Assembly (NCBI GenBank): GCA_947650365.1
Contig: OX393554.1
Span: 35,807,137 to 35,871,136 of the forward strand
From: Chamaelirium japonicum
Taxonomy: Eukaryota; Streptophyta; Magnoliopsida; Liliales; Melanthiaceae
Reading direction: 5' to 3'
Length of the DNA: 64,000 nt
The position numbers were made by a program, and so were the translations under genes. Each line of letters starts with the position of its first letter. Within the stretch, counting starts at the first letter, position 1. Positions 4,974 to 60,524 of the stretch are shown here, piece after piece. The notes beneath the pieces were generated by a model. The model worked only from the letters and a program-made list of their open reading frames with translations, did no database searches and had not been told where the DNA came from.

Positions 4974-5056
4974 GTCCTGTTTAGCCGGCCAATTCGCTGG
5001 ATATTGGCACTTCATGGAAGCGAAGTTGTTCCGTTTATGATTGCAGGAGTTTCAAG
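4974..5056 (+). CDS. EDD1: EDD1 window exon 1
   Basis: 83 bp after a ttgtag acceptor and before a gtatta donor. It encodes the start of the seen beta-domain part, with [16 protein letters not shown], the equivalent of bacterial GlyS PIRW..ALLG. It ends after two bases of a serine codon that is completed 14 kb downstream. I found no earlier exon in positions 1-4973. Confidence 0.93.

Positions 5057-60524: not shown

Follow-up and report, generated by a model that had tools for sequence, protein, structure and literature searches.

A putative organellar glycyl-tRNA synthetase gene of Chamaelirium japonicum and the transposable elements in its introns

Exons, predicted protein and extent of the gene

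The window analysed here is a stretch of 64,000 nucleotides from Chamaelirium japonicum (contig OX393554.1, positions 35,807,137 to 35,871,136 of the forward strand). Fifteen exons separated by 14 introns lie on its forward strand and would encode part of a glycyl-tRNA synthetase (GlyRS). The exons and the main introns are as follows, in window coordinates:

4974..5056, + strand: exon 1 (first in the window), 83 bp; GlyRS beta region, matching PF02092 and PDB 7xjy
5057..19116, + strand: intron 1, 14,060 bp, GT-AG
19117..19165, + strand: exon 2, 49 bp
19166..32641, + strand: intron 2, 13,476 bp, GT-AG
32642..32704, + strand: exon 3, 63 bp
32885..32974, + strand: exon 4, 90 bp
33059..33145, + strand: exon 5, 87 bp
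33146..42569, + strand: intron 5, 9,424 bp, no more than 550 bp of which were recognized as repeat
42570..42644, + strand: exon 6, 75 bp
42753..42811, + strand: exon 7, 59 bp
43105..43198, + strand: exon 8, 94 bp
43283..43501, + strand: exon 9, 219 bp
43502..51177, + strand: intron 9, 7,676 bp, GT-AG
51178..51272, + strand: exon 10, 95 bp
51273..55269, + strand: intron 10, 3,997 bp
55270..55360, + strand: exon 11, 91 bp
55434..55538, + strand: exon 12, 105 bp
55619..55657, + strand: exon 13, 39 bp
57054..57143, + strand: exon 14, 90 bp
57144..60422, + strand: intron 14, 3,279 bp
60423..60524, + strand: exon 15, 102 bp; no later exon found in the window, frame still open

Rebuilding of the exon map reproduced exactly the 15 exons, totalling 1,341 bp between 4974 and 60524, that had been proposed in a preceding sequence-only reading. 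The joined exons give 447 codons with zero stops, GT-AG borders are present at 14 of the 14 introns, and the exons occupy 2.4% of the 4974-60524 span. Introns 1 to 7 are of 14,060, 13,476, 180, 84, 9,424, 108 and 293 bp, and introns 8 to 14 of 84, 7,676, 3,997, 73, 80, 1,396 and 3,279 bp, respectively. Four introns had been said to exceed 7 kb, and this is indeed the case for introns 1, 2, 5 and 9 (14,060, 13,476, 9,424 and 7,676 bp). The accompanying statement that the others are of 73-180 bp turned out to be incomplete, as it omits introns of 293, 1,396, 3,279 and 3,997 bp. By size, the 14 introns comprise four above 7 kb, three of 1,396-3,997 bp and seven of 73-293 bp.

The joined protein matches the Pfam family of the GlyRS beta subunit (PF02092) over profile positions 151-535 of 536 with 449.1 bits, as compared to a cut-off of 29.2 bits, and an E value of 3.5e-134. 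The best match in the PDB is 7xjy_A, a glycine--tRNA ligase of 1,045 aa that is presumably the rice chloroplast enzyme, with an E value of 3.2e-205 vs. 3.1e-101 for the next best; the nearest relative of known structure is a long chain of the fused type. All 447 residues align without a gap to residues 511-957 of the 1,045 in 7xjy_A, and 311 of the 447 are identical. The PDB matches represent five distinct sequences, four of them annotated as glycine--tRNA ligase or the beta subunit of this enzyme, the fifth only as "multifunctional fusion protein". A search of genome contigs yielded one bacterial relative, at 35% identity. The match to GlyRS is far beyond chance, and the matches to 7xjy_A and PF02092 bear out the earlier naming of the product as an organellar glycyl-tRNA synthetase. 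The locus would be a nuclear gene for a bacterial-type organellar enzyme with fused alpha and beta parts, the Arabidopsis orthologue of which would be EDD1, which we take to be At3g48110. Targeting of the At3g48110 product to mitochondria and chloroplasts (mt/cp) is reported in PMC7564348, and knockout of EDD1 leads to embryo failure according to PMC9352626, in agreement with what the sequence-only reading had stated about a role in plastids and mitochondria and about the embryo lethality of EDD1 mutants.

According to the 7xjy alignment, about 510 residues on the N-terminal side (upstream) and 88 on the C-terminal side (downstream) fall outside the window. A search of positions 1-4973 and 60525-64000 with E. 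coli GlyS, which a short divergent exon could escape, gave no convincing further exon (best E 0.55). The alpha domain was not found with E. coli GlyQ (best E 0.98 in the flanks and 1.5 in the whole window), nor in the whole window with a GlyRS alpha motif (best E 0.91); it would lie upstream of the window, and the N-terminus, with any organelle transit peptide, would likewise be outside. Since the exons are internal (residues 511-957 of 1,045 in 7xjy) and no exon was found in the flanks, the gene must run past both ends of the window, and the 55 kb is therefore a lower bound on its span. Because both flanks carry an L1-like zf-RVT domain, they most plausibly belong to two further long introns. 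The entire 64 kb probably lies within one gene.

In the left flank there is a degraded L1-like element at 336-2150 (with 37-324), antisense to the gene and probably in the intron before exon 1. Its zf-RVT domain scores above the Pfam cut-off at 336-758 and just under it at 37-324, and the reverse transcriptase pieces at 1375-2150 are weak. The right flank contains a sense frame of 392 codons at 61076-62254 with zf-RVT above the Pfam cut-off. This frame probably represents the 3' portion of an L1-like element and likely falls in the intron that follows exon 15. A 62-bp unit is repeated four times in tandem at 63590-63838.

Transposable elements and other repeats in the introns

The following elements and repeat pairs were recognized within the introns; where no orientation is given, no strand was assigned:

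12998..18292, + strand (sense): copia element in intron 1, both LTRs, target site duplication (TSD) AAGGG
24546..27186: candidate LTR-type repeat pair in intron 2; K2P 0.090 over 24766-25198/26762-27186
29464..32120, + strand (sense): truncated copia in intron 2, related to the intron 1 copy
31392..31661: hAT-like non-autonomous element, 270 bp, nested in the intron 2 copia; 8-bp TSD ACCACCGC
43957..47187, - strand (antisense): degraded copia in intron 9
48555..48876: second hAT-like copy, 322 bp, in intron 9; 8-bp TSD ATCGTGTC
51640-51749/54165-54276: candidate short-LTR pair in intron 10; K2P 0.151
about 59557-60039, antisense: L1-like endonuclease pieces in intron 14, seen by eye; Pfam E 0.16 only

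In total, the repeats recognized, part of them being candidates only, cover 18,801 of the 54,210 bp of intron sequence (34.7%). This share is likely an underestimate, since the assignment was made without a plant repeat library. By intron, repeats account for 41-66% of introns 1, 2, 9 and 10, 29% of intron 14 and 5.8% of intron 5; no bases of intron 13 were assigned to repeats. The earlier description of the introns as retroelement-filled suits introns 1, 2, 9 and 10 and does not extend to all the long ones. The four repeat pairs that lie within single introns have K2P distances from 0.022 up to 0.151.

The intron 1 element has the attributes of a copia element: LTRs of the TG...CA type, integrase ahead of RVT_2 and a 5-bp TSD. 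Its LTRs, of 141 bp each (12998-13138 and 18152-18292), start with TGTTAA, finish with CTAACA and differ at 3 of 141 positions. The gag, gag_pre-integrs, integrase and RVT_2 domains are scattered over four ORFs, so that the ends of the element are complete and its coding region is interrupted. A C-rich minisatellite (13213-13655) follows the 5' LTR and precedes the gag ORF. Elsewhere in intron 1, at 11819-12282, there are two tandem copies of 229 bp that are 86% alike, with a related block at 9079-9201. Each of the two copies carries a sequence (TGGTATCAGAGC) that resembles the site where initiator tRNA would bind as a primer in LTR elements. A copia-like ORF in intron 10 (52259-52729) gave no Pfam match. 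A comparison of a copia ORF with plasmids returned four matching records, each less than 60% identical. Two small actinobacterial plasmid records derived from rhizosphere soil, NZ_CP115454.1 and NZ_CP115302.1 (4.6 and 5.2 kb, respectively), show a match of 37.7% to the reverse transcriptase of the copia and are possibly plant DNA in the assemblies.

An 8-bp target duplication is typical of hAT elements. The TSDs are exact at both hAT-like copies (31392-31661 and 48555-48876) and the terminal inverted repeats are imperfect. The sole candidate transposase ORF tested, at 47039-47557, had no match to the hAT or BED Pfam families even at E 10 and was rejected, which limits the claim to non-autonomous hAT-like elements. 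The nested hAT DNA reported earlier is retained to the extent that 8-bp TSDs are present and one copy sits inside a copia element; a transposase domain was not found in the one ORF examined. Pfam supports the L1-like pieces of reverse transcriptase and endonuclease only weakly (E 0.04-0.16). Copia, hAT-like and L1-like pieces, the three kinds of DNA that the introns had been said to hold, were all found. An unclassified repeat is common to introns 5 and 14 (36098-36647/58014-58480), its copies agreeing at 86% of 383 columns of the alignment and at 79% of another 119.

Growth of the introns and competing explanations

These data suggest, with a probability of about 0.85, that the locus is an ordinary plant organellar GlyRS gene of the alpha-beta fusion type, orthologous to EDD1, the introns of which have been lengthened by transposable elements and bear no mark of special regulation that we could find. 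The introns would have grown by repeated, mostly neutral insertions in a lineage of plants that has long introns. They would be read through by RNA polymerase II and excised by the spliceosome as in any long gene, and general read-through of methylated intronic elements of the IBM2/EDM2 type may help.

A different explanation, put forward in the sequence-only reading, is that the long introns are regulated heterochromatin which tunes or silences an essential gene, as IBM2 and EDM2 do for some Arabidopsis genes with introns of this kind. Such a mechanism exists (PMC5364540), PPD7, an Arabidopsis gene for a chloroplast protein, is reported to be affected on loss of heterochromatic marks (PMC10241880), and two copia elements lie in the introns in sense orientation. 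CHG-type sites also appear to point this way. The observed/expected ratio of CAG/CTG is 1.37 in the exons, 1.71 in introns below 300 bp and 0.79-1.25 in introns above 1 kb, being below the exon value in all seven of the latter. As CAG/CTG would be lowered if methylated CHG sites had decayed, the low values in the long introns go the way of the sequence-only reading, and the contrast is a weak hint toward methylated introns. However, the ratio in the long introns is close to random and, in the four above 7 kb, close to that of the GAC/GTC control, which is 0.80-0.96 (CAG/CTG vs. GAC/GTC of 1.06/0.96, 0.88/0.91, 0.79/0.80 and 1.06/0.94), and it is high in the copia elements themselves (1.31 in intron 1 and 1.41 in intron 9), so that the contrast may reflect only the composition of exons and splice sites.

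The remaining proxies do not strengthen the case for regulated heterochromatin. For CpG, the observed/expected ratio of 0.571 in exons compares with 0.379 for the introns below 300 bp and 0.59-0.74 for the four longer than 7 kb; introns 10, 13 and 14 give 0.583, 0.324 and 0.561, respectively. There is no consistent extra CpG loss in long introns: of the seven longer than 1 kb, only introns 13 and 14 fall below the exon ratio. Five repeat pairs differ by 49 transitions vs. 44 transversions (2:1, 20:16, 3:1, 7:8 and 17:18), a modest bias to which the fifth pair contributes changes that may have arisen elsewhere, as it spans two introns. Purging of sense AATAAA polyadenylation hexamers from the introns is not seen: there are 34 of them vs. 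26.8 expected (sd 4.2; order-2 Markov). The count of 34 sense vs. 61 antisense AATAAA was considered as a depletion and rejected; the order-2 Markov means are 26.8 and 43.7, and the asymmetry arises because the strand is T-rich. CpG, transition bias and polyadenylation hexamers, all of them weak proxies, give no clear support for regulated heterochromatin, and sequence proxies rule present-day methylation neither in nor out. This explanation is unlikely. A narrower proposal, that full-length mRNA is made only while the young sense copia of intron 1 is silenced, seems very improbable; if it were true, transcripts would end prematurely once methylation was lost, and translation in the organelles would be tied to the epigenetic state.

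It is still harder to believe that the locus is a decaying or transposed pseudogene, with the function residing in a compact paralogue elsewhere. Against this stand the 447 open codons, the 14 of 14 introns with GT-AG borders and the lack of any gap relative to 7xjy; retention of the introns means that the locus is not a processed copy. Furthermore, At3g48110 is the sole Arabidopsis GlyRS marked mt, cp in the table of PMC7564348.

The age of the repeats provides an estimate of constraint on the frame. The candidate LTRs of intron 10 (pair D, K2P 0.151) are the most diverged pair examined. Over their age, the exons would have drifted by about 101 substitutions, including 2.9 nonsense changes expected without selection, and the probability of none is 0.053, a figure that leaves out frameshifts, rests on a candidate LTR pair and is only supportive of a functional frame. 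The young intron 1 copia is uninformative in this respect: 0.42 stops are expected over its age and the probability of none is 0.66. Finally, repeat-rich plant DNA such as this is prone to misassembly, and there is a very slight chance that part of the length is an assembly artefact, against which speak the order and open frame of the exons across 55 kb and the exact target duplications that flank the copia of intron 1 and both hAT-like elements, as they would flank genuine insertions.

Comparison with known long plant genes

The reading as an ordinary long gene places the locus among well-described cases. In Ginkgo the mean intron is 7,884 bp (PMC5118899). In Chloranthus, 876 of 2,184 orthologues are longer than 20 kb, LTR elements are the major contributor to long introns, and long genes and introns are prevalent in Chloranthales and magnoliids as a whole, as reported in PMC8626473. 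Genes with long introns are more highly expressed in that study until intron length exceeds 40 kb (PMC8626473). The long genes of Chloranthus and magnoliids resemble the locus in having conserved exons; theirs are lengthened mainly by LTR elements (PMC8626473). As these reports indicate, genes of this kind in some plant lineages commonly have long introns filled with transposable elements and can still be expressed (PMC8626473, PMC10487979). A limited literature search returned, by title, no plant case of an aminoacyl-tRNA synthetase gene with long introns of this kind.

In long introns that contain heterochromatic inserts, IBM2 and EDM2 keep 3' ends from being processed ectopically (PMC5364540), and read-through of heterochromatic introns is described in both PMC5364540 and PMC10241880. 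In those introns, transcription across transposable element or T-DNA inserts is reported (PMC5364540, PMC10241880). The present locus would matter in this context only if its expression depended on the silencing of intronic insertions; otherwise it is another essential plant gene that tolerates large introns rich in transposable elements.

As compared to the known plant organellar glycine--tRNA ligase (EDD1; 7xjy), the predicted protein is collinear over 447 residues, the window holding only an internal part, and the gene spans at least 55 kb here. A parallel in gene architecture is MSH1, which keeps organelle genomes stable; it exceeds 50 kb in 34 species, with a maximum of 805,861 bp, and its length correlates with the proportion of transposable elements (PMC10487979). 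Like the locus, MSH1 is a nuclear gene with an organellar role and introns filled with transposable elements, and it is a singleton in most species; unlike the locus, it is a different gene and far longer, up to 805,861 bp (PMC10487979). Introns expanded by transposable elements in essential or single-copy plant genes have already been published, and the locus is an ordinary further case.
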